From contig CACECO010000011.1 of assembly GCA_902558075.1 (NCBI GenBank), forward strand, positions 1 through 47,060: 47,060 nt of DNA, in the 5' to 3' direction. A model generated the notes under the pieces. It saw only the letters and a program-made list of their open reading frames with translations. It was not told the DNA's origin and ran no database searches. Shown piece after piece: positions 24,708 through 46,316 of this stretch. Source of the DNA: an uncultured Litorivicinus sp. (lineage in GTDB: Bacteria; Pseudomonadota; Gammaproteobacteria; Pseudomonadales; Litorivicinaceae). Every line of letters starts with the position of its first letter. Within the stretch, counting starts at the first letter, position 1. Made by a program: the position numbers and the translations under genes.

Positions 24708-24798
24708 GGAGAGGTGGCAGAGCGGTTGAATGCACCGGTCTTGAAAACCGGCATAGGTTAATAGCCTATCCAGGGTTCGAATCCCTGCCTCTCCGCCA
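24708..24798 (+). tRNA. tRNA-Ser (anticodon UGA)
   Basis: A 91-nt class II tRNA. The acceptor strands GGAGAGG and CCTCTCC pair; the anticodon stem CCGGT/ACCGG flanks the loop CTTGAAA with anticodon TGA. A long variable arm follows, then the T-loop GGTTCGAATCC, discriminator G and an encoded CCA at 24796-24798. It reads UCA/UCG codons. Its 3' end is repeated 19.4 kb downstream, consistent with use as an integration site that left the tRNA intact. Confidence 0.97.
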
Positions 24799-24804
24799 CT
24801 TATT
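24785..24804 (+). repeat. Candidate attL: 20 bp at the tRNA-Ser 3' end
   Basis: These 20 bases (starting CTGCCTC, including the CCA end and six bases beyond) recur at 44213-44232 with 18 of 20 identical and in the same orientation. That is the expected signature of tRNA-targeted integration by a tyrosine recombinase. No recombinase gene is recognisable between the copies. Confidence 0.5.
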
Positions 24805-25211: not shown

Positions 25212-25226
25212 ATGGTTCGTGGATCA

Positions 25227-26851: not shown

Positions 26852-26854
26852 CGG

Positions 26855-27052: not shown

Positions 27053-27055
27053 TGA

Positions 27056-28652: not shown

Positions 28653-28698
28653 GCTGGACCACAGGGATAACTGATGGAACTTTTATCATCTTCTTAAT

Positions 28699-30078: not shown

Positions 30079-30517
30079 TACAGCGGAGACTTAAGTGTGT
30101 AGCGCCATCCCATGATTCGTTGGAGAAACTGTCAAACGGAAAAGTCACATAATAAATCGTCGTTTCATTAGCTTCGACTAGCAATGCGACGAAAAGTTTC
30201 TCTCTCGCATTTTTAAAATAAAGACCTCGTTGATCTCCATAAAATTCTTCAAATAAATATTCTGCTTGCTTAAAGAAAGGTAGTTGCGACTCAACGGCGA
30301 ACCCTAAGTTTTTCCTATACACGCTGATAGTGACGAGCTTTTCTAGCTGCTCTAATTCGATCTTGGTCAGATTCTGGGCAAGACCAGTACCTATATCTTT
30401 GCGAATACCCTCGCACACTACTTTGAATTCAGAAGGGCCAGCCCACAAAAGTGCTGAACCTGTGAAAAACCAGATACAGGCGAATGGAATTTGTAGTTGC
30501 TTCAACAGCTCGTTCAT
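30056..30517 (-). CDS. Exported hypothetical protein upstream of AAA+ ATPase
   Basis: 153 aa; hydrophobic N-terminus ([18 protein letters not shown]) looks like a signal peptide with cleavage after AWA-type residues. The mature part contains one cysteine early (VVCEGI) and one late (LSLRCNDD), possibly a disulfide, and a region rich in Phe/Tyr. I recognise no family. It overlaps the AAA+ gene start by 23 bp on the same strand, so a functional pairing across the inner membrane is a reasonable inference. Confidence 0.65.
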
Positions 30518-30575
30518 CAGCTATTGAATCTACACGACTTCTTGAACTTTTTTCCGACAGTTTGCTCTAACTATT

Positions 30576-30842
30576 ATGAGAGGTGTTTTTGTATCTACGC
30601 TTGCTTTCTCCCTGACAATGTCAGTTGCCGCACTGTTGACTCCATCTAAACCAATTCCAGCGGAACCATGGTTAACAGACAATTTTGACAGGCTTGTTAC
30701 CTTCAAAATGTGTGGAGACTATTGGGCATGGGAGTCTGTTCCACCGCGGATGCCTGAATCTAGTCGTACTGAAGAACAATGCGGTGTTATTCCTATTCCG
30801 AATCTCAAGTTGCCGACTAAACCGAGTACGTTGACGCACTAG
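30576..30842 (+). CDS. Small exported hypothetical protein
   Basis: 88 aa with a signal-peptide-like start (MRGVFVSTLAFSLTMSVAALL) and a Pro-rich mature part with two cysteines (KMCGDYW, EQCGVIP). It stands alone on the plus strand between two minus-strand groups, divergent from the 153-aa gene by 58 bp. No family recognised and no strong ribosome site; real but unproven. Confidence 0.4.
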   Translation: MRGVFVSTLAFSLTMSVAALLTPSKPIPAEPWLTDNFDRLVTFKMCGDYWAWESVPPRMPESSRTEEQCGVIPIPNLKLPTKPSTLTH

Positions 30843-30961
30843 TTATGTTCCAGTAATGGCTGAGTTTCGGAGTGAGTATTGATCCCTGTGTTTGATTAGA
30901 CATGACGTAATTTTGCCCACGGGCCAATCAGCGTAATCCGAATGATTTTTGGAACAGGAAG

Positions 30962-33328
30962 TTATTCCTCGTACTTTAAGCTCTCTAGATACCAGCATTT
31001 GAGTAAATCAGGCATCCGTCTTATCAAAGAAGTTTCTAATCTTGTTGGTTCTCCGCCGGCGTTATCATAAAACTCAGTGATATCATCTGCTGTTACCGGC
31101 CTCGCGGGATCTACTTTGGCCAATGTGGGAGTTAGAAACTGCATCAGTATGGAGTTTGCGGGCTCTTTAGTTAAGGTTGCCCTAGCGATTATTGAGGGGT
31201 TCTCGGCCGGATTCCCTAATTCCGCGCGCAGCGTAAGTTCATTCTCGAGTACGTTGTGATCAACTTCTGTCGAAGGCAGTATCAGAGTGCTTTTTCCTGT
31301 ATTCGATATTAGAGCTTTTTGGGCTTCGGCAATCGATTCGGCAAATAGTAGCTGTGCGACCTGGCACTCAAGATAGCCTGCGGTCGCCAAAGCCTGAGAC
31401 GCAAACAGAAAGCTCCCAGGCCCAGATATCATGGGAGTGGCTCCTGACGCTGTAAACTCGATAAGCGCACCAAAAAGACTCTCAATATCGCTTTCAGAAA
31501 CTATTCTTAGCCCAGCCGCTTTGAATGCGGCTCGTTTCTCAGCCTTTTTAGAAAGAGCGAGTATCGGTAGTTGGTAATGTGTCAAATTGGTTGCCGAAGA
31601 ATTTGCGTAAGGGGGTGCGTTACCCGCTTGAGAGTTGGTTCGTATCATCATATTGATTAGAGGATCGTCTAGAACGCTAGCCAGGTTTTGAGCCGACTTG
31701 TCGATAGCTTTTTGCACGCGTGTTTTGGCTTCTTTTTCGAATCGATCGATTTGTTTTTTCCTATTTTCTATTTGCTCCTGCAATTTGTTTACAGTGTTTT
31801 GAAGAGTGGTTGCCTCAGCTGACAATTCATCAAGTTTAGGCGCATGTTTTGCAGCTAATTGCTGGATCTCCTCATTTAAAATGTCTTGTACAGCTTCTGA
31901 TTTCTCAAACTGCTGTAGAAAAGACTTAATGAAAACTGAAGCACCAACAGTATTTCTCTGCGATGATGCAATCATGTAGTTCAGCCGATTGCTGAGAAAA
32001 GATGGGATTGGGTCGTCGCTGGCATGACTCTCAAATTGTTTCAATTCTGATAGAACATCGTTGTCGAGATCCATTGAGATGAAGTCGAAGTCAGAAAGTA
32101 GCGACTGCCTTGAATAAGCTTTATTAACCAGCGCTGTTGGAACATCACTTGGAGCGATGTAATGCCAGTTTTCTTTAAAACTAGTCGTGATTATCTGGTT
32201 ACGACGGGTTCTCGGGGATATTAGAGCGCCATCCGGTAGCTTGAACCAGATCGGGTGGGAGGTATGTTTGAAGGAGAGTGCTTTTAATTCTTCATGCAAA
32301 GTTTCAATCTGATGAAGTCCACTTTCAGTTTGTATTACTTCAGCGACGTCATTCCATTTTTGGTCTACTCGGTATTCATTTAGACCGCCAGTTGATGACC
32401 GCACAAGTTTTGCTGGGAAGTACTCGCTGGACTCCGGAAGACCCTTTAACAGCGCAAGCGAAATGAATGCGCTGCCTTTCGATGGAAAAAGCTCTGTTGC
32501 ATGATCTCGGGTTAAAGGAATTAGACTGCCACCCGCACCTTGCACAGCGACAATATCACCTGCAAATCCCTTTCCCCCTAGGTCAAAGGGCTTGTTGAGT
32601 ACTGCAAAATATTCGTCGCGACCGGTAGGAATTCTTTCACCAGTCGCATCCGATACGATGCTTAACGCTTCATCAATAGATTCTTGGTCAGTTGAAGTTT
32701 CGCAGAGAGCATCCCAAACGAACGGATTAGTTTGCTGCAGCGCCTTGAAGAATGGAGCCAACTCATCGAAGGTATCGTCCGAAGTCTGGTTGATATCCAA
32801 ATTACTAGCTATCCATTGGGCCAGCAATTTTGCAGATATTTCAGGTTGGACTGACACAGGTTCGACGGTCTTTGTCGTCTGAGTTTTTTCTTGGTCATCA
32901 AGAAATGAATTCAAAGCCTTTTTCAGTTGATCTGACACTTCTGGATGGAGCAGTCTCAGGCAGTGTGGGTCACTTTTTAGCTGTGCTGTAGAAAGAGGCT
33001 CCCCTTTGATCATTTGTCCGAGCATTAAGTTGACGATATCTGTGTTAGACAGTTCCGAAAAGGGACCAGAGAGTTCGAGTTCAGCTATCCATTTCTCTAC
33101 CAGATCTAGGCGGATCTCACTATCTAATCTGATCAGGGTTTTGCCCTTGTCACTGCCCGAGTTACCTATCTTGTAACTTTTGGTTGTTTGGGTGAGAGAC
33201 TTAAGGTTAGCTGTTTCCCACTTTTTAAAAATCTCTCGACCTTTTTTGTGGGAGATCATTCGAGCATAGGCTGAAACCAGCGTTTCATTGATGAGCTTAT
33301 CGTTCCAAGAAACTTTTTTTGTGGCCAT
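30962..33328 (-). CDS. Large coiled-coil protein of the Druantia-like operon
   Basis: 788 aa, last gene of the six-gene operon, starting 5 bp after the 411-aa gene. No certain family. Residues ~1-130 are helical and Lys-rich; ~215-420 look mixed alpha/beta (DLGGKGFAGDIVAVQG, YFPAKLVRSSTGG); ~490-560 form a strongly predicted coiled coil (TLQNTVNKLQEQIENRKKQI). The C-terminal ~200 residues contain SGPGSFLFASQALA, which resembles a P-loop lacking its GK[ST], then STLILPSTEV and RATLTKEP in the spacing of an AAA-type sensor strand. I infer, with low confidence, a degenerate AAA-like domain. It could correspond to one of the unnamed large Druantia subunits (DruB/DruC role). Confidence 0.8.
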   Translation of the reverse strand: MATKKVSWNDKLINETLVSAYARMISHKKGREIFKKWETANLKSLTQTTKSYKIGNSGSDKGKTLIRLDSEIRLDLVEKWIAELELSGPFSELSNTDIVNLMLGQMIKGEPLSTAQLKSDPHCLRLLHPEVSDQLKKALNSFLDDQEKTQTTKTVEPVSVQPEISAKLLAQWIASNLDINQTSDDTFDELAPFFKALQQTNPFVWDALCETSTDQESIDEALSIVSDATGERIPTGRDEYFAVLNKPFDLGGKGFAGDIVAVQGAGGSLIPLTRDHATELFPSKGSAFISLALLKGLPESSEYFPAKLVRSSTGGLNEYRVDQKWNDVAEVIQTESGLHQIETLHEELKALSFKHTSHPIWFKLPDGALISPRTRRNQIITTSFKENWHYIAPSDVPTALVNKAYSRQSLLSDFDFISMDLDNDVLSELKQFESHASDDPIPSFLSNRLNYMIASSQRNTVGASVFIKSFLQQFEKSEAVQDILNEEIQQLAAKHAPKLDELSAEATTLQNTVNKLQEQIENRKKQIDRFEKEAKTRVQKAIDKSAQNLASVLDDPLINMMIRTNSQAGNAPPYANSSATNLTHYQLPILALSKKAEKRAAFKAAGLRIVSESDIESLFGALIEFTASGATPMISGPGSFLFASQALATAGYLECQVAQLLFAESIAEAQKALISNTGKSTLILPSTEVDHNVLENELTLRAELGNPAENPSIIARATLTKEPANSILMQFLTPTLAKVDPARPVTADDITEFYDNAGGEPTRLETSLIRRMPDLLKCWYLESLKYEE

Positions 33329-33333
33329 GGTAC

Positions 33334-34569
33334 TTACCTATTTCGAAGAATCTGTTTATTCCATTCCCTCATGGATATGGCAGAGGGCCGATACTTGCTC
33401 ATAAACTTAACATTTTCAGGTGCTGTTAAAGTTATTTGCCAGTAATTCTCCTTGAGGGTCGCAATTCCGATTTCTTTAGTTGAAGTGAAGTGAACTTCAT
33501 CTTCGATTTCATTTTTTATTCTCGGGGTAAATTCGTTGTTCTGAATTTGCGAATCTAATTGTATATCTAATCGCTGCTCATACTGGCTTATCAAGGACAA
33601 ACTAGTCATTCCATCTGGAAATTCTAACTCTTTGATTTGACCGCCGACTTCGATAGTAGCGGTAACGTGGGCCTGGTGTTCACCTGTAAAAATAGCTGTA
33701 AGCAGTTGCTCTTTGATTGAATGAATGGCAATGCCGTCGAGTGAGGCGACTTTTATCAGCGAATTCTCGTCATCGATAGCAGTTGCGTTAGGTGTAACCG
33801 TATAAAAACCAGCTGGTTTGTCGGTTAATACATCATATCTATCGTTAGAGAGCAGTTGAGAGATTGTCGCTTGATTGTTTGAGGCTGCTCGCTCAACACG
33901 TAAATCAGTGTCGAGGGCAACTAGGATGGCATCTATGTCTTCTAAAAAAATCTGTGATTCGGTAATGATTGAAAAATCTTCGCCATCATTTGTGAGAGGA
34001 AAAAATGAGTGTGATTTAAGGTGAGCATTTAGTTGTGTCAAAAACTGAATTGTCGCGCTATTTGCACTTGTTGAGGTCTCAAACCGGGATAGATGTTTGA
34101 TTGGGAACTCCAACGGTACTCTGAATGTTTTACTATCCGTCGACTGGGTTAACGTTGTTTGACCATCGCGTCGGTGTGGGAAAAGTAATTGAACTTTACT
34201 TGATGTGATGGGCTGGGGTTTAAGTGTGGCTTTTGCGAAGACGATAACCCGACCATTAGTGTCTTTGAGTCCTAACTCAATATCAATTTCACGACCACTT
34301 GATGCAGGTAACCAGTCTGGTCTTATGTATCGAGTTCGCCTTTGATTTGGTACGGGGTTCGAGTTGTTTCCAGGTTGATAAAGCTCGCAGGCCTCATTAC
34401 CTGCACCCCAACTATGCTGAAAGTGATTTCCGTGTTTTCTCACATGCAGAATCACGGGCGCCTCGCATTCAGGGCAAACCAATCGAGTGAGTTTTATTGC
34501 CCGGGGGCTTAAGGTTTTATCCTGGGAGTCGATGATCTCTGTTGATTTTGGATTTTTAGCGTAACGCAT
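33334..34569 (-). CDS. Druantia-like operon protein with putative N-terminal zinc site
   Basis: 411 aa, starting ATG 34569 within the stop of the DUF4338 gene (TAATG). Residues ~32-66 read RLVCPECEAPVILHVRKHG then HFQHSW and ACELYQPG: a CxxC, a pair of histidines and a later Cys, an arrangement resembling the zinc-binding start of CoiA-like or restriction-type proteins. The remaining ~340 residues are beta-rich with acidic patches and match nothing I recognise. Position in the operon suggests a structural or DNA-contacting subunit. Confidence 0.78.
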   Translation of the reverse strand: MRYAKNPKSTEIIDSQDKTLSPRAIKLTRLVCPECEAPVILHVRKHGNHFQHSWGAGNEACELYQPGNNSNPVPNQRRTRYIRPDWLPASSGREIDIELGLKDTNGRVIVFAKATLKPQPITSSKVQLLFPHRRDGQTTLTQSTDSKTFRVPLEFPIKHLSRFETSTSANSATIQFLTQLNAHLKSHSFFPLTNDGEDFSIITESQIFLEDIDAILVALDTDLRVERAASNNQATISQLLSNDRYDVLTDKPAGFYTVTPNATAIDDENSLIKVASLDGIAIHSIKEQLLTAIFTGEHQAHVTATIEVGGQIKELEFPDGMTSLSLISQYEQRLDIQLDSQIQNNEFTPRIKNEIEDEVHFTSTKEIGIATLKENYWQITLTAPENVKFMSKYRPSAISMREWNKQILRNR

Positions 34570-35699
34570 TACTTGTATGCCTCATCGATCTTTTTAATCC
34601 ATTGTTCGCAGGAAAATGTTTTATACGACTGATCTCTCTCAGTCCTAGGTATTAGCCATCGATCTAGAGCTTGTTGAGCAATAGTTTTTTCGTGACGTAC
34701 GAGAGGTCTTGTTGGCGCTATCCCAGTTTTGAGATAGTTCTCCGCATCTTCATATAGTCGACAAAAGAAGACTTCACGGCGAATACCGTGTTTCACCGCG
34801 TTTTGGTCGATATCTAATAGTTTCAGAGCATCCCTAATTACGCGAATCTTCCAGTTTGGACCTTTTCCGAAATCGAAGCTGTTTGCTTTTTCGGGGTACT
34901 CAGATGTGACAAGGCTCTTAAGCTTGGAAAATAAATCGTCTGAGAATTGAAAGTGACCGTACCCTGAGGTGAAGCCAATAGGCTCAAGTATTAGGCGACC
35001 GTCTAAGCGCAGGCGGTTATATACCGATGAACGCCCTAAAACTGATGTTGTGGTTATTGCTGATAGTATCGCCGGCTTCGTTTTGCCTGAAATGAGACCA
35101 GCTTTGCCTTGGTATTTTTCCTCAAATACTTTTTGGATTGTTTCTGATGCTAACAGTGAAGCCACTAGCTTGCCTCCGAGCATGAGGCTGTATGGAGGGA
35201 GAGCTCCAAGAACAAAAGCATCTAACATTCCAGATAATCGAGCCTTGCGATCGTCTGAATTCCAGCCTATCAATTCATCTCTAACTTTTAGATTGAAGAC
35301 GGGGTCAGTTAGCCCGATGAGGCCGATCAACGAATTATGAAAATCATCCCACACTAGAAAACGAAGCCGTCGACCAAATCCTCGAGATGTAGGGATCGAC
35401 CAGTTGAAACTAGCTAGCCGAAATATCGTTGCAGTTGGGTGTGTTGAATCAGGCATAGGTATCAACTTAGGCTGTATTTTATTTGGTGTGATGCCTATTC
35501 CATCGATTAAGAAATCTTTACATGTAGCTTTATTCTTATCCCAGAAGGCTCGATTTCGTTGGAGAAAATCTTGCTTATGCGTTTTGTGCATCTCTCGAAT
35601 TGAGGACTTACTGTGATTCCCATTAAGTATCTTTTTCTCCTGGTCCATACTTGTCTCAATGAGATGCTTAAGTTCAGCTTTTCTTGCGGTATCGATCAT
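34569..35699 (-). CDS. DUF4338 protein, DruA-like
   Basis: 376 aa. The central region carries the DUF4338 pattern: a LRFLVWDDF strand, IGLIGLTDPVF, RDELIGW followed by RKARLSGMLDAFVLGALPP and GGKLVASLLAS (residues ~110-190). The C-terminal part contains an RREVFFCRLYEDAENYL block. DUF4338 defines DruA, one component of type I Druantia anti-phage systems; its activity was not known to me. The ATG overlaps the stop of the DruE-like helicase by four bases (ATGA), tying the two genes together. The family call rests on remembered motif patterns, not a search. Confidence 0.75.
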   Translation of the reverse strand: MIDTARKAELKHLIETSMDQEKKILNGNHSKSSIREMHKTHKQDFLQRNRAFWDKNKATCKDFLIDGIGITPNKIQPKLIPMPDSTHPTATIFRLASFNWSIPTSRGFGRRLRFLVWDDFHNSLIGLIGLTDPVFNLKVRDELIGWNSDDRKARLSGMLDAFVLGALPPYSLMLGGKLVASLLASETIQKVFEEKYQGKAGLISGKTKPAILSAITTTSVLGRSSVYNRLRLDGRLILEPIGFTSGYGHFQFSDDLFSKLKSLVTSEYPEKANSFDFGKGPNWKIRVIRDALKLLDIDQNAVKHGIRREVFFCRLYEDAENYLKTGIAPTRPLVRHEKTIAQQALDRWLIPRTERDQSYKTFSCEQWIKKIDEAYK

Positions 35700-38600
35700 T
35701 GCAATAAATCGTCAATAATGTTCGGAAGCCTCAAAGCGACGTCTATGGGCCTGAGTGAAAAATGGTCCGCGTCCAGACTATGGGGCTCGGATAATGATGG
35801 AATAAAATCAAAACTACGAGTTCTACTATTTAAGTTAAATGAACGATCGCCGGTGATATTCCCACCAACCTGTCTTATTTCCTCTACTAGGCGTCTAGAG
35901 AGTCGTTGTAAATATTTTTCGTCACCATCTTGTTCCATAGTCCCGCTCAATAGCGTTCTGGCAAGTGCTGCGCCCATGAACCGATTCAACAAATGGTCAA
36001 CAAACCGATTTTGATAACTTGAGAGACACTTATAGCAACTACTATCGCAGTCACAATCCTCTAGGATATTAATTGCATTGAAATTCGGATTAGCCTTTAA
36101 GACCTCATAAAAACTGGGAATAACCTTGTTAGCGTAATCAGCACCCCCTTGCGCATCGTCGAAGAAGTACAGCTCAATATCGAATTTTTTTTCACCGGCC
36201 ACCCTAATTCCATAGCCAACATCACGCTCATCGATATCTTGCAATTTGGCAAATGCATGAACGATTGCGACGCAAAGTGATGTACAAGCAATTTGGAGTT
36301 CATCTGGGATTCTGTTCCCCACAGGCCTTTTCATTGCCTCAGGTAAAGCAAATTGTATAGCCGACATGTCGGTCACAATTTCATGTCCTAAAGCTACTTT
36401 TTCTGGCGTTCCGTAGCAGATTTCGTAATCGAGCTTCCCGCCCTTTTCGGGACGTGTTGGGTAATCTCTTCTGTGCGACTGAGCTATATCATCTTCGGAA
36501 TAAGGAGGACTACTCTTTCCACATTGAGAACAAACCGTAAAAAGTTTCGGGCCGCCATCCTTGATTGAAGAATTGTTCGGGTTTATGCGTGCAAACCGCA
36601 CTCTGCTTGCCGTATAGATGAGATTTTTGCAGCCCGTTATTCGTGGATGTTCCTTTTGATCAAGCTTATTCGAGGGCTCACCTATGATTTGCGGATCATT
36701 TGCTTTTGTGAAGATGGCATCCCTCAAATTAATACTAAACTGTCCTTGTCTACGACTAATGACATATCTCGGCTGTATAACTTTTATCGATTTAAGAGTC
36801 GGTATCGAGCAGCAATTTTTCGTCTCCGCTGAAATATCATGGAGAGTCCCGCAAGAGTTGCAGTGTTCATAGTTCTTAGAAGCGAGCGGATCAAATAAAC
36901 TGGCGGCCTTATTTTTTTCAGGATCTTTTACCGAAGCTCCGAGAACAGAACCTACTTGGTATGTATTTTTGTCAATGACTAATACCCGCCCCGGTGCTGA
37001 TTCGGAAATCGCATTTCCGATAGATGAAGAAGGTGCTTCCTCAATGTTGACTTTTGAATCAAAGGAGAACAGTTGAAATTCGACAAGGTCTCTGGGGAAT
37101 GCATATGAGGGGAGGTCTCCATTATCAAATAGTACATCCATCAGTTTCGCATTGACCCCTGTTGTACCTCGGATGTTGTTAGCTCGATCCTTAAGTTCCG
37201 CTAAAAATATTTCCAGTTTTGATTCTAGAGATTCGAGTAACGGCTCGATGTCTGGTATTGCGCTCGTTTGTCCGAAGAGCTTCAGAAACCAATCGCTCCT
37301 ATTATTGATAAGCTCGGCATTGGAAGGAAGCTGTACCCAGCTCCTTAAATGAGACATACACGGCGGGGTGTCGCCCATGAAGTCTTCTAATCGTCCCAAA
37401 TGCTCGAAAATATCGTTGGAGCGGCCCCTCCCTTGGCTCGCTTCAAATTCTGGTGAATTGAAATATGAACTAAGAAGCGAAGACAATAAATGTCGCTTTG
37501 CTAGGCTTTTGTTTACAGGTTCGAGGTGTACAGGTGCCATTGGACCAGAAATAATTTGGTCTGGGTTTTTGAAGTAATGAGAGTCGTGAGAGCCATTTTG
37601 GCAAAAAGTCACAACTGTCGAAAATGAGGACCCTCTGCGACCAGCTCTTCCGGCACGTTGTTGATAGTTTTGGCGTTGCGGTGGCACATTTCTCATTCCT
37701 ACAGCGATGAGTCCACCAATATCAATACCAACCTCCATGGTAGTAGTCGAACTAAGGATGTCTAACGGTTTCGAATGTTCCTTATCCGAAGGGTCTAGGA
37801 AGCCCTGAAATATCAACTCATTTTTGGCGACCTTCGAAATGATCTTTTCTTTGTTATCCCGATAATTGAGTTGAGCAGTATGTTCTCCAACGTCGATGAA
37901 TAACTCTTCTATATTTTTTCTTAAGACATTGATCACTGGATTACGCCAGAAAAGCTTTCGGGCACTGAAGTATGGTGAGTCTTGGTCGAATACGTTGATG
38001 TGCTCTTCCGCAGATCCACATGCTGGACATCTGTGATTACTTGCCAATATATCTGTGAGGTAAAGACATTTGGAACACTGATACCAACTTCCATCGAGAT
38101 CGACTGCTAGGGCGACGTGTTTTAGCTGGAGATTAAAGTGATCGGCCGGATCAACTCCAGTAGATTTGAGAAACACATCTTTGAAACAGTCGTTTATTTT
38201 TTTGGCATCATTCCCCAACAAGTTCGAGGCCTTTCTAGAAGAGAACATATGGTTTTTGTTGGGATTGAGTTTGTAGCTTGGCCCCCGACCTCTGTAGTCC
38301 CAAATGAATCGTAGGGCCTCTTTTAAATATGCCCCCTCAATTTCAGCGATCGCTCCGACGCTGAGGTAATCTCGAAGCCGTTTTGATACGAAAGCCTCTA
38401 GGGTTTGAGTATCGGATACAGCGACATTTTCTTTTTCTAGTTTGTTCAAAAATTGTTTTTTGAATACCCGTGGTGATGGGCGTACACCAGCAATCGCTAG
38501 TTCGGTGAGGTTATAGTTCGAGGTGCAGAGTATTTCTGCCAATAACTGAAAATACGATTCCGGTAAATCATCCCCAAATACTTCTCTACCTCTAGAGTAA

Positions 38601-41119
38601 ACATCTAAATGTTCTGTAAATTTGTTCCGGTCTTTTCCCTCGAAAAATATCTTTCTAGGGTTTAAACAAACCTCGAGTAATCCATGATAGAGAACGATGG
38701 GATTCAATGTGTTTGTGCATGAACGAATATCAAGAATTCCGTCATCTTCATCGGTAAGCTTGTCTGTAGCCTCAGTTGTCTGAAGCCATTCGTAAGCTTT
38801 GATAATGTAGATCCGGAAAACGTCCTTTTGGATTGTTTCAGGTAAACGTTTAGCTATTCGAGCTGCTTTTTGTCGGCCATCAGAGAACAGAAGTACCTTA
38901 CGCCCTTGGTTGGGATTACGATCGTTCTTAGCTTCGGTGGGGGTTTGTAATTTAAACTGCTCCCTGATTAGGTAAGTGAATGGATCTTCACCTCTGGTAG
39001 CCAGATCCATTATTGATGATTCAAATTCATCAGATTCGTTTTGTTGAGCATCTTTCTTGACGGTGGCTTCGCCACAACAAGGACAGTGCGAATAAGTCCA
39101 CGCCTTGGTTGCGGATGAAAAGTCTTTAATGAAATGCTCTTTAAACTCTTCTTCGCTAATTGGAATTGAGGTCGATAGTGACCCTTCCTTTAACCCTTTA
39201 TTAATCCTCCCCGTCCTAGGGTTAATTGAATATTCATTTGAATTTTCTGCGGAGTGATGGTCGACACATAAGAAAACCGGTGAAAGCTCCTCGTGATCTA
39301 GAGGAGATCCTGTTGGGTGAAGGAGTTGGTTGTCATACGCATCCCCCTCACTCAAGTTCCAGTAGGCTTTAATATAAGCGGACCCGCACGTTCGATGAGT
39401 GAATAGTTCATAAACTCTGGAACCGCAATCACAAATCGTACGCTTATCAGCGTACATTTTTCCAACTGGTGCGTCGTCTTCTCCACAAAGCGGATTTGCG
39501 CAGACAAAAAGTCCCGGAAGCCCTCGGTACATGAAGTGGGCCCTGATCGGCAGAAGCAACGAGGATGGTGTTTGTCCTATCGATCCAAGGCTTATTAAGC
39601 TATCTAGAAGCTCGTTCCGGTTAGTTTGATCTGGAAATAAAATTTTCGATAATTCAGATGGTGTTCGAGGCTTTTCCCGAAGAATGTCTCTCGCCAATCC
39701 GAAAACCTCTGTTTTAATGAGGTTCTCACCAATCCATCGTCGGAAACTCTCGACTGTGCCTTCGAATGGTTTGGTTTTCAGGATTTTGGCAAGCTCATCA
39801 GCCCAATTTTGTATATTTTCACTGATTTCAGAGTGCTGATCTTGCAGTGGAATGTCATAGATCTCGGTTGGCGAAATCTGACTTAGTAGACCCGCGAAGA
39901 CTTCGGGGCATTTGCCTGATTTAAGTGATTCTTCAGGCTCGTTAATAATTTCAAAAGAATCACCATCAAGCCCAGTTAATTTGTTAGCGATTTCTCTAAT
40001 TTTTTCGTCATTATCACCCAAGCTGGCACTGGTGACGATGAAGCGGATTTGTGTCGGTTTTGCTCCGATACGATTGATTAGCCTCCTCAAAAGGAGTGAA
40101 ACTTCCGAACCGGTCGTTCCGGTATACATATGCGCTTCGTCCAGTACAATCGTGAATTGATTGCGTTGATCGCTAGTCAACCAGTCTTGTGTTCGATCGA
40201 AGATTGTTTGTTCGATTGGACGCAGCAACATGTACTCAAGCATAGAGTAGTTAGTGACCATGATATCTGGAGGGCAGACTTGCATCTCACCCCGAAAAAT
40301 TAGCTCGGAGTCATTGGGGTCTATGATTGATTTGAAGTCAGTTGTAAGTTGGGCATTATCTAGGAATGTTCTGATATCAGTTTTCGCAGGAACTCGGTTA
40401 CTTACCTTTAACGCGTCACGATATTTAATTTCCTCTGGGGTTTGCGCATCAACTTTGTACAAGTCTCGGAGTGGCTCGATGTTTTTTCGATTGCCCTGCT
40501 CTGAAGGCACACCCGCATACGGCGTAGCTCCGGTATAGTTTCCAAACCTTAAAGGATGGCCAATTTCGCTCCGAATTATGCTGATGGAAGCATCGGACCC
40601 AAGAATTTTTCGTAGACGAGTTGTTTGGTCCGCAACCAAAGCATTCATCGGGTACAAAATCAACGCTTTTGTCGATGGGGAGGTAGCTGGCGCTTCCTTT
40701 TCGAGTCCAACTAGATGTGCCACGAGCGGATACAAAAACGTTTCCGTTTTGCCTGAGCCGGTGCCCGTTGCGACAACTATATTTTTATCATTTTTAATGA
40801 ATGATTCGAGCGCATCGATTTGATGGGTATACGGGGTTGGAATCACACCCGTTTCAGATGGATTTTCGGAAAGCTTGGATAGGAGCGCGCTGGCGATCGC
40901 CCCTATTCGGGCTGAGTCGTAACCTCCGACAGATTTGTAGAATCTGCTTGTTTCCAGAAACGGTTCGTTGGCAATCGAATTTTTTTGGTCAAGAAGCGAT
41001 CGTCTACTTCTAATGAGGCCGGTATTCCTAATATGGTACTGGGCTTCAATGTAGCGTTTGAGCTCTTCTGTCTGAATTTGGCTGAAGTTTTTAAGTGTGT
41101 ATGAGTGCTTTGAGCTCAT
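35696..41119 (-). CDS. DruE-like giant DEAH helicase with DUF1998-type C-terminus
   Basis: 1807 aa, a superfamily 2 helicase. Q-motif-like PYTHQ at 96-100, Walker A ATGTGSGKT at 117-125, MVTNYSMLEYMLLRP near 288-301, DEAH at 327-330, and motif VI QRAGRAGRRG near 1153. Between and after the helicase halves are several Cys clusters: FVCANPLCGE...CDCG (~540), WYQCSKCLY...CPACG (~1025), NSCGTLHD, and a final CDCDSSCYKCLSSYQN (~1690), the four-cysteine DUF1998/MZB signature seen in MrfA- and Dru/Drm-type helicases. Length and architecture fit DruE of Druantia. Probably moves along DNA and recruits the other subunits. Start overlaps the 293-aa gene by four bases. Confidence 0.85.
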   Translation of the reverse strand: MSSKHSYTLKNFSQIQTEELKRYIEAQYHIRNTGLIRSRRSLLDQKNSIANEPFLETSRFYKSVGGYDSARIGAIASALLSKLSENPSETGVIPTPYTHQIDALESFIKNDKNIVVATGTGSGKTETFLYPLVAHLVGLEKEAPATSPSTKALILYPMNALVADQTTRLRKILGSDASISIIRSEIGHPLRFGNYTGATPYAGVPSEQGNRKNIEPLRDLYKVDAQTPEEIKYRDALKVSNRVPAKTDIRTFLDNAQLTTDFKSIIDPNDSELIFRGEMQVCPPDIMVTNYSMLEYMLLRPIEQTIFDRTQDWLTSDQRNQFTIVLDEAHMYTGTTGSEVSLLLRRLINRIGAKPTQIRFIVTSASLGDNDEKIREIANKLTGLDGDSFEIINEPEESLKSGKCPEVFAGLLSQISPTEIYDIPLQDQHSEISENIQNWADELAKILKTKPFEGTVESFRRWIGENLIKTEVFGLARDILREKPRTPSELSKILFPDQTNRNELLDSLISLGSIGQTPSSLLLPIRAHFMYRGLPGLFVCANPLCGEDDAPVGKMYADKRTICDCGSRVYELFTHRTCGSAYIKAYWNLSEGDAYDNQLLHPTGSPLDHEELSPVFLCVDHHSAENSNEYSINPRTGRINKGLKEGSLSTSIPISEEEFKEHFIKDFSSATKAWTYSHCPCCGEATVKKDAQQNESDEFESSIMDLATRGEDPFTYLIREQFKLQTPTEAKNDRNPNQGRKVLLFSDGRQKAARIAKRLPETIQKDVFRIYIIKAYEWLQTTEATDKLTDEDDGILDIRSCTNTLNPIVLYHGLLEVCLNPRKIFFEGKDRNKFTEHLDVYSRGREVFGDDLPESYFQLLAEILCTSNYNLTELAIAGVRPSPRVFKKQFLNKLEKENVAVSDTQTLEAFVSKRLRDYLSVGAIAEIEGAYLKEALRFIWDYRGRGPSYKLNPNKNHMFSSRKASNLLGNDAKKINDCFKDVFLKSTGVDPADHFNLQLKHVALAVDLDGSWYQCSKCLYLTDILASNHRCPACGSAEEHINVFDQDSPYFSARKLFWRNPVINVLRKNIEELFIDVGEHTAQLNYRDNKEKIISKVAKNELIFQGFLDPSDKEHSKPLDILSSTTTMEVGIDIGGLIAVGMRNVPPQRQNYQQRAGRAGRRGSSFSTVVTFCQNGSHDSHYFKNPDQIISGPMAPVHLEPVNKSLAKRHLLSSLLSSYFNSPEFEASQGRGRSNDIFEHLGRLEDFMGDTPPCMSHLRSWVQLPSNAELINNRSDWFLKLFGQTSAIPDIEPLLESLESKLEIFLAELKDRANNIRGTTGVNAKLMDVLFDNGDLPSYAFPRDLVEFQLFSFDSKVNIEEAPSSSIGNAISESAPGRVLVIDKNTYQVGSVLGASVKDPEKNKAASLFDPLASKNYEHCNSCGTLHDISAETKNCCSIPTLKSIKVIQPRYVISRRQGQFSINLRDAIFTKANDPQIIGEPSNKLDQKEHPRITGCKNLIYTASRVRFARINPNNSSIKDGGPKLFTVCSQCGKSSPPYSEDDIAQSHRRDYPTRPEKGGKLDYEICYGTPEKVALGHEIVTDMSAIQFALPEAMKRPVGNRIPDELQIACTSLCVAIVHAFAKLQDIDERDVGYGIRVAGEKKFDIELYFFDDAQGGADYANKVIPSFYEVLKANPNFNAINILEDCDCDSSCYKCLSSYQNRFVDHLLNRFMGAALARTLLSGTMEQDGDEKYLQRLSRRLVEEIRQVGGNITGDRSFNLNSRTRSFDFIPSLSEPHSLDADHFSLRPIDVALRLPNIIDDLLQ

Positions 41120-41997
41120 TGATTCGCCTGCCTATATTTGACGAGGTGTCCCGCAATATCCTCAAAAACTCTAAAGCTAGCAGCAGTCATCAGATACGTC
41201 GAATTATCATCAACTATTTGCACGGACTCTGAACAGATCAGTGCTAATTTTTTCAAACTTTGAGGCGTATACATAAGAGGAGTGATAACGATGTTCGTAC
41301 CTTTGACCTCTTTGTTAAACAGAATTTTTGATTTTCCAGCTATTAAATTTAAAGCTACGAGTTCATACGCCTCTTCTGAGGTGATCTCTAGATGTTGATC
41401 ATTATCTGGTAAGCGCTGGATGAAGATTGTTGAGTACAGATTTTTTGCGCGTCCGACTAAAGGTTTTCTGGAATACTGCTCAGGGACTTGATCGTACTGG
41501 AGCCAGCAGTCCTGCAGCGTACGCTTTGCGTTAGGACAAAAGAATTCAAAATCTTCAATATTTGTTATAACAGGTCGCGCTTCGTTTTTTCGATAGAACA
41601 CTTCTGGAATTTGGGAAAGGTTAAGAGGTAAGCCCAACCATTCTGTTATATCTCGAACGGAGTCTGTAGAGTTTTGGTTTCCGTAAGCAAAGGGGAACTG
41701 CTGTGAAGGAAATGTTCCGCGGTTAAAGCCAATTACGTATTGTTGGCCTTTCCATGAGATCGCTAATGAGTCATAAGGGGAGTACCAACTATGCCCGAGG
41801 TGACAAAACTCTCCCAAGAATTCTAGTTGCTTTAATATTGTTCGAGTTTTTTGCACTGGGATGTAATTTTCAGCCATGTGCGTCAAAGCGTTGAGATGGA
41901 ATTTATCGTCGGAATTTGTGGCTAAACACTCGCCGACGCACAGTCGTAGCATGTGAGCCTCATTACTTGATATGTCCAAGAGCATACCTCGCGCCAT
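41116..41997 (-). CDS. Unknown 293-aa protein of the Druantia-like operon
   Basis: 293 aa, starting ATG 41997 (GGAG nine bases upstream), overlapping the helicase-nuclease gene by 35 bp; ATG 41985 is an alternative. The first ~65 residues are helical and could be a winged helix (LNALTHMAENYIPVQKTRTILKQLEFLGEF). The middle has NIEDFEFFCPNAKRTLQDCW, the end is mixed. I recognise no family. Very tight coupling on both sides shows it belongs to the system; it might act as an adaptor or DNA-binding subunit, but that is only inference. Confidence 0.75.
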   Translation of the reverse strand: MARGMLLDISSNEAHMLRLCVGECLATNSDDKFHLNALTHMAENYIPVQKTRTILKQLEFLGEFCHLGHSWYSPYDSLAISWKGQQYVIGFNRGTFPSQQFPFAYGNQNSTDSVRDITEWLGLPLNLSQIPEVFYRKNEARPVITNIEDFEFFCPNAKRTLQDCWLQYDQVPEQYSRKPLVGRAKNLYSTIFIQRLPDNDQHLEITSEEAYELVALNLIAGKSKILFNKEVKGTNIVITPLMYTPQSLKKLALICSESVQIVDDNSTYLMTAASFRVFEDIAGHLVKYRQANQ

Positions 41998-43783
41998 CTA
42001 CAGCTGCTCCAAGTGTAGCTTTTTGCTTAGCGCCAGCTCGTTTTTGAAACAATACTACGGTTTTATTAATTCCACGTGAAAGCGCGATTAAGGTCAGATT
42101 AGCATCAGCATCCACGCCGCCTCTGACCCCTTCAATTCCAACAATTATGACTGTCTTCGCCTCTAATCCACGGGAACTCTCAAAAGTTGTCAGGCGGATA
42201 TCGTCTAGCATCGGGATAGAGCGTTTCTGAGCATCGACTGTTAGATCAATCATTCCACGTATCTTGTTTTTTTCTACAAGCTCCGCAATACAGTCACGGC
42301 ATTTATTATTTAATTTAGAAGTACGAGAAATGACTAATATTTCATGCGCTGTTTGGCCGGACTCCATTTCATGCAGGATGGTTGCTTGCAGCAAAGACGC
42401 CAGTTCGCCTTCAAAATCATCATCGTATGTAGCGATTTCGAGTCCTATTTCATTTGGCCTTAATAGGTCTAGCTCTTTTTTCGAGATTTTCTGTTTGAGT
42501 TCCTTCGATATTTTTCCAACGTCACTTTTTCCAGTAAGGATCATTGAAAAAATGTAGGCGGTGACTAATGAGATTCCAGGATTACGGTAATTCTTGGTTA
42601 GGCGCTCTATTTTAAAGGTGTCCAGCCAGTCTCTAACTGATTGAGCTCTTTCATACTGCTTGTATACCTCTTGACCTGTACCCTCAGCTAGTCCAACCCA
42701 GAAGCTATTTTGGGACCAGAATTGGATCCATCGCATTAGTGGATCTGGAAAGTCTTGTGTCTCATCAACCAGCAATATGTCGGGGAATTTGATTTGGCTT
42801 GGGGCCAGTGAAGATAGTTCCTGTAAAACTAGGTCAATCCAATCCAGATAGTCTTGTTTTCCGACATCAATTCCAAATGCAGCGGTTTGAAGTGAGACAT
42901 GTTCGTATATATCTAAAACTTCAATAAAGTCAGTAAGTTCCGGATCATTTCGTTCCTTAGCAATTGAATATATGTTTGCTCTTAATTGGGCGGCTAAAGC
43001 TTTGTTATAACAGAGCAGTAGGACAGGATTGCCCTCGGTTCCATGGGCAAGAGCTAGTGCGAGTAGACTAAATGTTTTGCCAGAACCAGGGATACCTATG
43101 AAGCGAACATGATTGGTTTCTGACAACGGATATGTGCGCTGCAATTGATGCCGTTGTTTTGTCTCATTTTTCAGAAATGTTGAGACAGAAGGCAGGTCTG
43201 GCTGAATTGATTCAGCATCGAGAATGTCGAGAAAAGTAGTCAGATGACTTTCTTCAAAAGAATATGGTTTGAAAGCCCCTTGACGGATAGGTGGTCTGGA
43301 GTATATGTCCGACAAGCGAGATTTGAATGCTTGTGGTGTTAATAAGTCATCTTGGAATATCTGACTTCGAGCTATCTCTATTAGTGATGAATCGTCTTGG
43401 AATGCTTCAAGCCACTCACTTCTAGTTATTTCTGGCCAGCAGGCAGTTGATACAGTGAAAGGAAAATCATGTCGTCGCTTATGTGCATAATTTCGGAGAT
43501 CGGTTGTAGCGTTATACGCTTGAAGTTGTGGAGAGTGACCTTCCTTTCTATTTTTGATTTTGATGTTTTGGCGAGAAATTGATTCTATTTGGTTCAAGGG
43601 AACGGCTTTGATTTCGATACCGAAGCAGCCTGTTTCTTCATGTAATACCAACAAGTCAAGATCTTTAACTCCGGGGATGTAGTTGATAGAAAACCATGCC
43701 CATAATTGGATATCGCCGAAGCCTTCGAGCGTTTGTTTGACCTTTTGTTCGCCAAAGTTGTCTGGTGATCCGAATATCTTCAT
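41963..43783 (-). CDS. NERD nuclease domain fused to UvrD-like superfamily 1 helicase
   Basis: 606 aa, first gene of the operon. Residues ~8-110 form a nuclease-related (NERD) domain: GVKDLDLLVLH supplies D41/D43 and FGIEIKA supplies E57-x-K59, a complete PD-(D/E)xK core. The helicase follows: Walker A GIPGSGKTFS (~228-237), Walker B LLVDETQDFPD (~336-346, Thr where DEAQD is usual), YRNP (motif IV-like), and C-terminal TFESSRGLEAKTVIIVG and IALSRG for motifs V-VI. NERD-helicase fusions occur in mobile and defence contexts. Likely a DNA-cleaving or DNA-processing effector. No strong ribosome site precedes the ATG. Confidence 0.85.
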   Translation of the reverse strand: MKIFGSPDNFGEQKVKQTLEGFGDIQLWAWFSINYIPGVKDLDLLVLHEETGCFGIEIKAVPLNQIESISRQNIKIKNRKEGHSPQLQAYNATTDLRNYAHKRRHDFPFTVSTACWPEITRSEWLEAFQDDSSLIEIARSQIFQDDLLTPQAFKSRLSDIYSRPPIRQGAFKPYSFEESHLTTFLDILDAESIQPDLPSVSTFLKNETKQRHQLQRTYPLSETNHVRFIGIPGSGKTFSLLALALAHGTEGNPVLLLCYNKALAAQLRANIYSIAKERNDPELTDFIEVLDIYEHVSLQTAAFGIDVGKQDYLDWIDLVLQELSSLAPSQIKFPDILLVDETQDFPDPLMRWIQFWSQNSFWVGLAEGTGQEVYKQYERAQSVRDWLDTFKIERLTKNYRNPGISLVTAYIFSMILTGKSDVGKISKELKQKISKKELDLLRPNEIGLEIATYDDDFEGELASLLQATILHEMESGQTAHEILVISRTSKLNNKCRDCIAELVEKNKIRGMIDLTVDAQKRSIPMLDDIRLTTFESSRGLEAKTVIIVGIEGVRGGVDADANLTLIALSRGINKTVVLFQKRAGAKQKATLGAAVDGARYALGHIK

Positions 43784-44206
43784 GACTCACAGATAGCTTA
43801 TTTGCTTACTCTGTTCAATTGTTTGCAGACATGTTTTTAGATAGCTAAGACTTTTGACGGACTGCTCGTGTTTTTGTTTAACCACTTCTGATTCGAAGAC
43901 ACACTATATTTCGTTAAAAGTTGTCAGGATAATCAAGACCAGGGAGGTCAAAATGTCGAAAAGTAAGTTATAGGCTTGCGCCCGCTGAGAACGTCAGTTC
44001 TGCATCTGCGATTGATGTGGGACCGATTTTACGATCAGCCCAGGATTCGTGAGCGCATCGCACGCCGATTCCCTGAGTATATGTTGTCGTCTTCTGTCAG
44101 CTGTCGCGCGGGCGCGCGAATATACCAAGTGTGGGACAAATTGTGGGATCAGAATAAGAAATATTTTAATAAAATTAACTAAATCAATTATTTATGATAT
44201 TAATTA
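43784..44206. other. Right end of the island: operon leader and decayed sequence
   Basis: The bases just above 43783 must carry the promoter of the six-gene operon. At 43953 a strong GGGAGG ribosome site leads to a 6-codon frame (MSKSKL, then TAG). A 68-codon frame at 43976-44182 with a TTG start looks protein-like (FYDQPRIRERIARRFPEY) and more GC-rich than its surroundings, perhaps a remnant of a mobile-element gene. TGTGGGAC occurs at 44016 and 44130, and TGTGGGAT at 44142. Confidence 0.45.
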
Positions 44207-44238
44207 GGCGGACTGCCTCCCCGCCATTTATTATTTTC
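44207..44238 (+). terminator. Hairpin overlapping candidate attR
   Basis: GGCGG (44207-44211) can pair with CCGCC (44221-44225) over a 9-base loop, followed by ATTTATTATTTT. On the plus strand this could terminate transcription, but nothing obvious is transcribed into it. The 3' half is the tRNA-Ser-like repeat. Confidence 0.3.
44213..44232 (+). repeat. Candidate attR: second copy of the tRNA-Ser 3' end
   Basis: 18 of 20 bases match 24785-24804, same orientation, including the CCGCCA corresponding to the discriminator and CCA end of the tRNA. The match stops abruptly on both sides, so it is not a second tRNA gene. Confidence 0.5.
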
Positions 44239-44324
44239 ACTACATCCCAGTGACTCTCAAATTTTTTAGTTTTAGCCTGTAAATACTGGCTTTTAGACAT
44301 TTTATTTTCCTATAAAATGGTTTA

Positions 44325-46316
44325 TCAAATTTTTGCAAAACGACCATCTTTCCGGAGAGCTCCAAGAAAACTTGGCCGGTTAAGAATGTTATTTGATTTG
44401 TTCAGTCCAAGTTGCGCGCCAGTCGAGGGGCATAAAATCCGTGTTTCGGCAAGAGCGGCCGTGACGTCACCATGATCCAGAGATTGTGCCCTCTCAACTG
44501 CGTTTCTCCAAAATTGAAAGGCGTTGTATGTCGAAACAGCGGGGTCGATTATAGGAATAGTCGCGAGCCGTTTATCTGTAGCGCATATTGTCTTGAACTC
44601 GTTGTGGGTTGGATTTTGAGTAGATTGCTCAAAATACCCCCAACAAGCAAGCAGTCCTTCTATTTTAGAACAATCTAGCAAATAAGTATCCAAATCGGTC
44701 GCATCAAAAGCTATAATTTGAAAGCGGCTTAAGTCCATTTCGGCTTTGGACAAAAGTTTCAAAAACTCTTTTAGTGACGGTCCTACTAAAGATACAGATA
44801 AAATGATGGAGTTTTTTTCCCGCTCGCTTAGTTTGGCTAACGCATCAATTTCATCTTCTAGATCCGTAAAACCTACGGGATAATAGCGATAAGTTATTTT
44901 TGATCCGGGTACACCATAGGCTTTCAAATAGGATGAACTTATCTCGTTAATCGTACGCGGCCATACATAGTCTGAGCCAATGCCTATGAATGAACCGATA
45001 TCACCTGCTTTGCTCAGAGCATGTTCCAGAGCTGGAATAACCGACTTTGTCGGCGGAGCATTGAGGTACACTACTTCTTTGGAAATCTCATCTCCCTCAA
45101 AATGTAATGGATAGAATAGAATCCCGTTTTGATTTGAAATTGGTGGTATCACTTGCTTTCTGGCGGCAGATGTCCAACAACCAACGAAGTATCTCGTTAT
45201 CTTTTGATCTATAAGTTCCTGCGTAATGTTTCCGTATTCATTCCAGTTGGATCTGGGATCTGGCTGAAGTAACTTTACTTTTTTACCGAGGATACCACCG
45301 TCCCTGTTGAATTTTTCGACTATCCTTTTTGCAAGAAGACTAAGGTTGGATTCCCAAGGAGCCATTAATCCCGTTTGTGAAAACAGACTGCAAATTACAA
45401 CGTCTTCGTTTTTGATTTCCCTTTTTTTTGCACTGTTTTTAGCGATGAATTGGGTTCTCAGTTGATCAGTAATCTGCTTTTTCGATGTTTCAATCTTTGG
45501 AGACCCTCTCAGGTGCATGGGATAGGAGAGAAAAAGCGCAATAGATTGGGGTTGCGTTGATATTTGATCGAACACTAACCGCTTTAATCTTTGATCGTCC
45601 ACCCAACTTGGTAAAAAACCAACACCACTTCCATTGCTAATTGCGGTAAGCATTTCCGTAAGTGAGGTTACTCTGAGATGTCCTAAGGTGTTTTGCGGTA
45701 TCGGCATCAGACCATTCAGATAGAAAAAAGGACTATGTTCAGTGAACAAAATGAAATCCCATGTAGGCAAATCTTTATGGGTACGATTTAATTCGTTGTC
45801 GCGGTAATAGACTTCAGAGCAAAAGAGTTGGAAGTTAAAACTGCCGACAGGTTTTTCGATAAAGTCTAAACGCGCTGTGCTCTCAAAACTCAGCTCGATA
45901 TCGGGAAGAGGCGCCTCAAGTTCGTCTAGATCTGAATTAGCGGTGATTTCAACGAAGATACCCTTCTTTTTGTTTTGGATAACGTCTAGGTTCTGGATAA
46001 CCCAGGTATTAATGAAATCAGCAGGCGCGGACAAGCGAAGGCGTTTGTCTGACCTCTCGCTGAGATCTGCTACTGTCGTGCTAAATTTCTGCGCTTCGTG
46101 GCAAACAATTTTTGCATGTGTAAAGACTTGTTGTCCGGCATCCGTTAGGGAAATTCCTCTAGAATGACGGATCATAAGCTTAGTACCTGAAGAATCTTCT
46201 AAGTTCTTAATCCGGCGACTAATTGATGAAATGTTGGTGTTTAAAACTTTTGCGGCTTGGCTAAGTGAACCCCAATGCGCTACGTGGTAAAAAATTTGTA
46301 AGTCGTCCAGACTCAT
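44325..46316 (-). CDS. LysR-type regulator fused to a UrtA/AmiC-like ligand-binding domain
   Basis: 663 aa, about twice a normal LysR regulator. Residues 1-60 are a LysR winged helix (LQIFYHVAHWGSLSQAAKVLN, SISRRIKNLE); ~90-290 form the usual co-inducer domain (LRLSAPADF, LPSWVDD). From residue ~302 a second, complete type I periplasmic-binding fold follows: VVICSLFSQTGLMAPWE, RDGGILGKKVKLL, YFVGCWTSAARKQVIPP, ILFYPLHFEG, GSDYVWPRTIN and YRYYPVG. These motifs match urea/short-chain-amide binding proteins (UrtA, AmiC, FmdD). There is no signal peptide, so it should sense ligand in the cytoplasm, like AmiC. Divergent from the urtA-like gene, its likely target. No frameshift or stop joins the parts. 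Confidence 0.9.
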   Translation of the reverse strand: MSLDDLQIFYHVAHWGSLSQAAKVLNTNISSISRRIKNLEDSSGTKLMIRHSRGISLTDAGQQVFTHAKIVCHEAQKFSTTVADLSERSDKRLRLSAPADFINTWVIQNLDVIQNKKKGIFVEITANSDLDELEAPLPDIELSFESTARLDFIEKPVGSFNFQLFCSEVYYRDNELNRTHKDLPTWDFILFTEHSPFFYLNGLMPIPQNTLGHLRVTSLTEMLTAISNGSGVGFLPSWVDDQRLKRLVFDQISTQPQSIALFLSYPMHLRGSPKIETSKKQITDQLRTQFIAKNSAKKREIKNEDVVICSLFSQTGLMAPWESNLSLLAKRIVEKFNRDGGILGKKVKLLQPDPRSNWNEYGNITQELIDQKITRYFVGCWTSAARKQVIPPISNQNGILFYPLHFEGDEISKEVVYLNAPPTKSVIPALEHALSKAGDIGSFIGIGSDYVWPRTINEISSSYLKAYGVPGSKITYRYYPVGFTDLEDEIDALAKLSEREKNSIILSVSLVGPSLKEFLKLLSKAEMDLSRFQIIAFDATDLDTYLLDCSKIEGLLACWGYFEQSTQNPTHNEFKTICATDKRLATIPIIDPAVSTYNAFQFWRNAVERAQSLDHGDVTAALAETRILCPSTGAQLGLNKSNNILNRPSFLGALRKDGRFAKI

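Follow-up and report, generated by a model that had tools for sequence, protein, structure and literature searches.

Six uninterrupted open reading frames (ORFs), all on the minus strand, lie at positions 30962-43783 of contig CACECO010000011.1 from an uncultured Litorivicinus sp. They raise the question of which defence system they encode and whether a gene for a NERD nuclease fused to a UvrD-like helicase (NERD-UvrD) is part of it. The stretch analysed, hereafter the window, is the whole contig of 47,060 nucleotides from an assembly with 1.5 Mb and a completeness of 72%. A first-pass annotation of the letters had described a six-gene, Druantia-like operon with a non-standard gene set. The ORF coordinates bore out its layout: neighbouring genes overlap by 35, 4, 4 and 1 bases, and one pair is 5 bases apart; the 35-base overlap joins the NERD-UvrD gene (N) to the druD gene, and the order of transcription is N-D-E-A-B-C. 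Five of the genes are type I Druantia genes, or sit in the places expected for them, in rotated order and do not form a new gene set, whereas the NERD-UvrD gene is genuinely additional beside Druantia. The claim of a non-standard gene set thus stands for the NERD-UvrD gene but not for the five others, whose rotation is seen elsewhere too. We read the locus, with a probability of about 0.6, as a strongly diverged type I Druantia variant of the order D-E-A-B-C, which is presumably co-transcribed with the gene of a NERD-UvrD protein that probably supplies the nuclease and which is located on a probable island at a tRNA-Ser gene.

DruE, DruA and DruD homologues in the operon

The 1807-amino-acid protein matched the PADLOC model DruE1 with 1390 bits, compared with at most 606 bits for DruE2-4, and the Pfam domains DEAD, Helicase_C and MZB were found (MZB with 35.2 bits at a cut-off of 24.2); MZB is the newer name of DUF1998. 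The DruE motifs checked are conserved. Two solved helicases, 9tu7 and 9wae, were matched with 247-249 bits; the entries are titled helicase only, and we take both to be DruE proteins. After the zinc cluster, the protein continues for 105 residues to its C-terminal end. The DruE1 score, the MZB domain above cut-off and a place in the DruE tree within the clade of the canonical loci assign this DruE to the type I class. The 376-amino-acid protein matched PF14236 with 243 bits (cut-off 27) and PADLOC DruA1 with 427 bits, identifying it as a type I DruA. Hence, the DUF4338 and the helicase plus DUF1998-type assignments of the first-pass annotation both held in profile searches. NCBIfam gave nothing for the 376-, 411- and 293-amino-acid proteins. 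Elsewhere, four genomes (G304, G302, G289 and G251) contained several PF14236 matches each, for example three frames of 363 amino acids in G304, as if this family were mobile or transposase-like as well.

The 293-amino-acid protein had been called an unknown. A DruD profile was built from 80 proteins of 280-460 amino acids encoded directly upstream of DruE, with the window left out, and 79 of its 80 members matched it with E-values below 1e-5. With an E-value of 2.6e-12 and 43.3 bits, the protein matched positions 75-333 of the 347 in this profile, none of the operon's other proteins did so, and local hhalign against DruD gave 97.9% with an E-value of 5.2e-13 over residues 9-280. Because the profile and the local hhalign match are nearly full length, the protein is, judged by homology, DruD; the same two matches provide the DruD of a type I system. 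The DruD models of PADLOC did not match it, a profile scan of genome contigs with this protein alone revealed no relatives and a plasmid tblastn gave no match. An AlphaFold (AF2) model made with 52 relatives reached a mean predicted local distance difference test (pLDDT) score of 80.8. A fold search with the model returned nothing at an E-value of 0.001 or better; among the best 50 of 742 matches, several high-probability partial matches were winged-helix domains (MCM8, Z-alpha, MukE).

Proteins in the DruB and DruC positions

The first-pass annotation had ended the operon on two large unknowns, a putative zinc protein and a coiled-coil protein; zinc ribbon and coil are present. The former protein can now be related to a type I gene by its N-terminal domain, and the latter sits in the position of one. 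The 411-amino-acid protein gave a weak PADLOC DruB match (20.9 bits, E 2.9e-5, residues 20-75). Profiles for DruB and DruC, 68 members each, were then recruited and built without the window. The DruB profile matched residues 27-74, the N-terminal zinc ribbon, with an E-value of 3.9e-10 (3.1e-10 with the window in the recruitment), and local hhalign of the ribbon against DruB gave 97%, compared with at most 0.2% (global mode) against the A, C, D, N and 950-amino-acid profiles. Residues 86-411 scored against DruB no better than shuffled sequence. A DruB-like identity of this protein is therefore supported by the zinc ribbon of about 50 residues and by its position.

The 788-amino-acid protein contains a coiled coil at about residues 478-553, and its PADLOC matches were weak and ran through the coil only. 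It matched the window-free DruC profile with an E-value of 4.6e-7 over residues 445-643, chiefly the coiled coil (4.5e-7 with the window in the recruitment), and was the best full-length non-member of that profile, the next one having an E-value of 0.006. With the coil masked, the signal dropped to an E-value of 0.05, and the real coil with shuffled ends still gave 34-54% against DruC. The DruC set may include coiled-coil false members (a 188-amino-acid protein in L074, and L161), so that counts of C are approximate. The protein occupies the DruC slot, and this position and the weak, mostly coiled-coil match make it a DruC candidate. Structure prediction, which the first-pass annotation had proposed for the three proteins without assignment, was successful for DruD with its winged helix but poor for the 788-amino-acid protein (pLDDT 50.6), and a fold search with the latter model was uninformative. 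In 72,556 plasmid records, tblastn found no match to the 411- or the 788-amino-acid protein.

Gene order and phylogeny of DruE loci

Related loci were collected with an alignment of eight DruE proteins as query. This yielded 16 viral contigs as well as 80 genome loci, the best-ranking among 569 that were confirmed; adding the window and 11 loci picked by hand (L054-L058, L060-L065) gave 108 loci with a DruE-like gene. The length of the DruE tail behind the zinc cluster was measurable in a usable way for 48 of the 108 proteins (4 of the 16 in loci with N). The typical, not strictly defining, type I order A-B-C-D-E was found in 12 of the 80 genome loci and an order containing B-C-D-E in 57. The window does not keep the typical order but reads D-E-A-B-C, as does one of the 80, from Pseudoxanthomonas (L074). 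Partial rotations were E-A-B in two loci (L074, L079) and E-A in four (L074, L076, L077, L079), L076 having the order B-C-D-E-A. The order in the window is, therefore, a rotation of A-B-C-D-E that is found elsewhere too. A plasmid tblastn with DruE hit 120 records, every one with less than 60% identity; the loci opened read A-B-C-D-E in Pseudomonas putida, A-955aa-D-E (with a 955-amino-acid protein) in Nitrosococcus and DruA-DruE-NERD-333aa (with a 333-amino-acid protein) in Leisingera.

In a DruE tree of 106 rows, made with a quick method, the window fell within a 77-row clade that holds the canonical A-B-C-D-E loci, with a support of 100 in the Shimodaira-Hasegawa-like approximate likelihood ratio test (SH-aLRT). 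There, it stands alone on a long branch (1.51 changes per column) without a firm sister, and uneven composition was flagged.

Two further groups stood out in this collection. In 42 of the 80 genome loci (many of L091-L147, mostly Bacillota), the genes are ordered B-C-D-E and the locus sequence contains no DruA homologue, the best DruA E-value being 1.4 or worse; a large branch of type I Druantia may therefore do without DruA. Another DruE clade (L058, L065, L127, L133, L145, L153, L154, L157) has one protein of about 950 amino acids in the place of B and C (A-950aa-D-E), for which hhalign showed a weak resemblance to DruB (39.5%, E 3e-4), and in five of these eight loci a NERD-helicase follows.

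The NERD-UvrD protein and its pairing with DruE

The 606-amino-acid protein matched the PADLOC model C3a187 NERD+UvrD with 61.8 bits over residues 27-577. Pfam NERD (PF08378) remained silent up to an E-value of 1 and UvrD was matched below cut-off only. In an alignment of 16 proteins, comprising the window, 13 of the 14 DruE-linked NERD-helicases described below (L063 was counted by profile), a Pimelobacter protein and one from G765, the PD-(D/E)xK residues E12, D43, E57 and K59, Walker A and D340/E341/D344 were invariant in 16 of 16. The PADLOC score and these catalytic columns reveal a PD-(D/E)xK core fused to the motifs of a superfamily 1 (SF1) helicase, as in C3a187/Nhi-like proteins, and the first-pass label NERD-UvrD was right. 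Viral scans with the single NERD-UvrD and DruA proteins and a phage tblastn with NERD-UvrD found no relatives.

A NERD-helicase gene lies directly behind DruE on the same strand in 7 of the 80 genome loci (L078, L089, L127, L133, L134, L148, L149), 3 of the 16 viral contigs (L153, L157, L159) and 4 of the 11 hand-picked loci (L060, L062, L063, L065). These 14 loci span at least three phyla, and in 13 of them the genes overlap or are at most 76 bases apart. Anywhere in the locus, an N homologue was present in 11 of the 80 genome loci, the additional ones being L140 and three more distant cases. The L140 UvrD protein had no NERD hit and was not scored as a NERD case; it is encoded between DruD and DruE (L140:7536-9644), has a weak ParE-toxin-like N-terminus and recalls the RelE-helicase ArmD of ARMADA type II. 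By chance, at one gene per kb, far below one such neighbour would be expected in 80 loci according to a rough estimate, and clustering in defence islands raises this expectation. As background, full-length NERD-UvrD homologues were found in at least 16 of 298 other Pseudomonadota genomes (four candidates scored per genome), and 78 of 299 genomes gave matches at an E-value of 1e-15, of which the weaker covered parts of UvrD. DruE was present in none of 18 background NERD-helicase loci within the flank sequence, mostly about 1.5 kb. The earlier idea of a second helicase that brings its own nuclease core to DruE is supported as a recurring genomic association, not as a function; a genome survey for the six genes, suggested at the same time, recovered the NERD-helicase/DruE pairing repeatedly but the full set in this order in none of the 107 other loci.

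In a 38-row tree of NERD-helicases with flagged long branches, the label "next to DruE" changed five times, all five changes being forced by well-supported branches. Without L093, L103, L140, L143 and L198, four changes remained, three of them forced, and after removal of the Pimelobacter row too there were three, two of them forced, with the window then lacking a firm place. An approximately unbiased (AU) test on the five-row-reduced tree, made after the 38-row tree had been inspected, rejected a single clade of DruE-paired NERD-helicases (p 0.0002). Since the paired NERD-helicases are not one clade, repeated recruitment by DruE operons is suggested as the simplest reading, losses being possible, as the count of label changes cannot separate repeated gain from one gain plus losses. 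The window NERD-UvrD was probably acquired separately, since it groups with the Pimelobacter gene (support 100/99 in the five-row-reduced tree, with long branches), which is also its best plasmid tblastn match.

Position on a probable genomic island

The operon probably lies on an island at 24799-44232, at a tRNA-Ser gene. Five genus mates (76-91% DNA identity) are syntenic with the window up to the 3' end of this tRNA gene, and three of them match it again from 44307-44324. In the genus mate G019, the same tRNA is followed by a different stretch of about 4.7 kb which encodes a phage-type integrase and whose far end matches the window at 44086-44231. The island ORFs scanned included no integrase. 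The mates showed no empty site: the flanks are on different contigs in G021 and G019, and G012 has a tRNA-Pro after the right-flank gene. DruE and NERD-UvrD were present in none of the 21 genus mates, several of which are incomplete.

Other features were seen in and next to the island. An AAA+ ATPase of the CbbX/SpoVK/EccA type (459 amino acids) is encoded at 28699-30517 and overlaps a 153-amino-acid protein without a family; a relative with 61% identity is present in G015. A direct repeat of 119 bases (25048-25166 and 27107-27225, 86% identical) precedes genes for an M48 peptidase and a Sel1-repeat protein. At 44325-46316, a LysR-type regulator (helix-turn-helix and LysR substrate domain) is fused to a Peripla_BP_5 domain (237 bits) and is 89-91% identical in three genus mates.

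Table 1 Features of the Druantia operon and of the probable island in the window.
Feature	Position	Strand	Evidence
NERD nuclease fused to UvrD-like SF1 helicase, 606 amino acids, operon gene 1, extra (sixth) gene	41963..43783	-	PADLOC C3a187 NERD+UvrD
DruD homologue, 293 amino acids, N-terminal winged helix (predicted)	41116..41997	-	Profile, hhalign, AF2
DruE, YprA-family DEAH helicase with MZB zinc module, 1807 amino acids	35696..41119	-	PADLOC DruE1, Pfam
DruA (DUF4338/PF14236), 376 amino acids	34569..35699	-	PADLOC DruA1, Pfam
DruB-like protein, 411 amino acids, DruB N-terminal zinc ribbon, rest unalignable	33334..34569	-	PADLOC, profile
Coiled-coil protein, 788 amino acids, in DruC position	30962..33328	-	Position, weak profile match
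tRNA-Ser(TGA), probable integration site and left island end	24708..24798	+	Five genus mates syntenic up to 24798-24803
Copy of tRNA-Ser 3' end, 18 of 20 bases, probable right island end	44213..44232	+	tRNA end and copy are the only two matches; 0 expected in shuffles

Discussion

How could the six proteins work together? The mechanistic papers found on Druantia, as far as their available text goes, concern type III (PMC13192584, PMC13316683). There, DruE is described as a helicase that loads on 3' single-stranded DNA and carries a C-terminal PLD nuclease (PMC13192584, available text), whereas type I DruE is described as having an inactivated Vsr domain only (PMC12458937, available text). In the proposed model, DruE, as a helicase loading on 3' single-stranded DNA, would engage single-stranded or replicating phage DNA; DruD with its winged helix and DruB with its zinc ribbon would serve in DNA binding or recognition and the coiled-coil protein might organise the complex. 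Because type I DruE has only the inactivated Vsr domain and the window DruE ends 105 residues past its zinc cluster, we propose that NERD-UvrD tracks along the DNA and cuts exposed strands in trans, as the nuclease that type I DruE lacks. The analysis established the identities of DruA, DruD and DruE, the rotated order, the intact NERD and helicase motifs and the recurrent NERD-helicase/DruE pairing, and the island is well supported; co-transcription, complex formation, this division of labour and a role of NERD-UvrD as a component instead of a neighbour are inferred. In its strongest form, the model makes NERD-UvrD a real sixth subunit of an unrecognised type I branch, a machine of two helicases with a nuclease in trans for which NERD-helicases were recruited several times independently to replace the lost DruE nuclease; we hold this form tentatively and rate it somewhat below even chances.

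Several observations weigh against reading the locus as a type I variant with a nuclease component of its own. The full six-gene set in this order was found in none of the 107 other loci. The sample is not random, for loci were ranked by similarity of their DruE to that of the window and the query alignment included three NERD-linked DruE proteins (L060, L062, L065); together with the lack of an empty site, this tempers our confidence. In 73 of the 80 genome loci, no NERD-helicase lies directly behind DruE, with some loci stopping at or shortly past DruE, and in the window itself the NERD gene precedes druD and is, therefore, not immediately beside DruE. The closest relative found (143 bits), from a Pimelobacter plasmid, is a NERD-helicase that stands alone and is not linked to Druantia; defence genes cluster in any case; and the 788-amino-acid protein shares little with DruC beyond the coil, just as the DruB match spans about 50 residues.

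Some of these points would equally fit an ordinary, diverged type I Druantia (A-E) beside an independent, Nhi/AbiO-like NERD-helicase that shares its promoter in a defence island. The lone Pimelobacter gene and the 73 loci speak for it, as do the at least 16 of 298 genomes with full-length homologues but without DruE in the flank sequence and the use of NERD-helicases in other defence settings (the Leisingera relative has PADLOC matches to RTasNERD-Hel, AbiO and Nhi). A mere neighbour fits poorly with the 35-base overlap with druD and with same-strand adjacency to DruE in 14 loci of at least three phyla, and pairing in more than one clade suggests selection for it; we regard this explanation as doubtful. 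It is less likely still that the locus is a new Druantia type, with 411- and 788-amino-acid proteins other than DruB and DruC and no more than A, D, E and a zinc ribbon in common with type I. Such a type would account for the unalignable residues 86-411, the lack of convincing DruC homology outside the coil, the empty plasmid searches and the lone DruE branch, and a clade in which one protein of about 950 amino acids replaces B and C exists; but the gene positions agree with D-E-A-B-C in L074, the zinc ribbon is specific for DruB (97% locally, as against at most 0.2% for the other profiles) and no other full-length non-member matches the DruC profile as well as the 788-amino-acid protein does (4.6e-7, next 0.006). 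Finally, we consider it highly improbable that the locus is a remnant, non-functional or repurposed, whose island has lost its integrase: the scanned ORFs without integrase, the fast-evolving DruE and the absence from all 21 genus mates would agree with this, but all six reading frames run uninterrupted through 12.8 kb, and the motifs checked in NERD, UvrD and DruE are conserved.

If the type I variant with NERD-UvrD is the right reading, a recurring and apparently repeatedly acquired nuclease-helicase beside a nuclease-less DruE is a candidate effector for type I Druantia. Literature searches for Druantia with NERD or UvrD gave no title or opening abstract naming such a pair, a mention in supplementary material being possible, and the available parts of PMC12458937 and PMC10952713 contain no description of it. 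Besides, the diverged DruC and DruD of the window escaped the PADLOC models, which barely picked up its DruB; permuted or diverged loci may hence be undercounted. The PADLOC paper, in its available part, names Druantia type IV by an associated gene (PMC8565338), a precedent for the naming of variants.

Comparison with known systems

Druantia types II, III and IV were rejected, as no DruM/F/G, DruH or DruL was among the PADLOC matches listed for seven proteins (for DruE, 25 of 45 families; for the others, all families). With type III (DruH-DruE), the locus shares a DruE-family helicase; unlike type III, it gave no DruH match in the listed families, and its DruE leaves no space for a PLD nuclease region at the C-terminal end such as that described for type III. 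ARMADA type II (ArmA-D) combines, according to the available text of PMC12458937, a YprA helicase with a UvrD/GajB-like helicase carrying an N-terminal toxin or nuclease domain, which is similar to the arrangement here, but the N-terminal domain is NERD in the window and RelE there. Membership in ARMADA was rejected, as its defining genes are absent from the six: no BrxHII-like helicase and no PglX methylase is found among the proteins. TALON (YprA helicase, NERD nuclease, TPR-CSD and TBP; PMC12458937, available text) likewise has a NERD nuclease accompanying a YprA helicase; it was rejected since none of the six proteins has a TPR-CSD or TBP Pfam domain, and the window differs further by the presence of DruA and DruD. 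A wholly new gene set was rejected as well, since DruD and the zinc ribbon of DruB were found.

NERD-helicases of the Nhi/AbiO/C3a187 kind are single-gene or CRISPR-associated systems. The window protein is like them in that a NERD nuclease is fused to an SF1 helicase and unlike them in being embedded in a Druantia operon. The closest likeness is to Druantia type I, with which the locus shares DruA, DruD and DruE with profile support, the DruB zinc ribbon and a coiled-coil protein in the DruC slot, and from which it differs by the order D-E-A-B-C, by DruB and DruC counterparts that have diverged almost beyond recognition and by the added NERD-UvrD.

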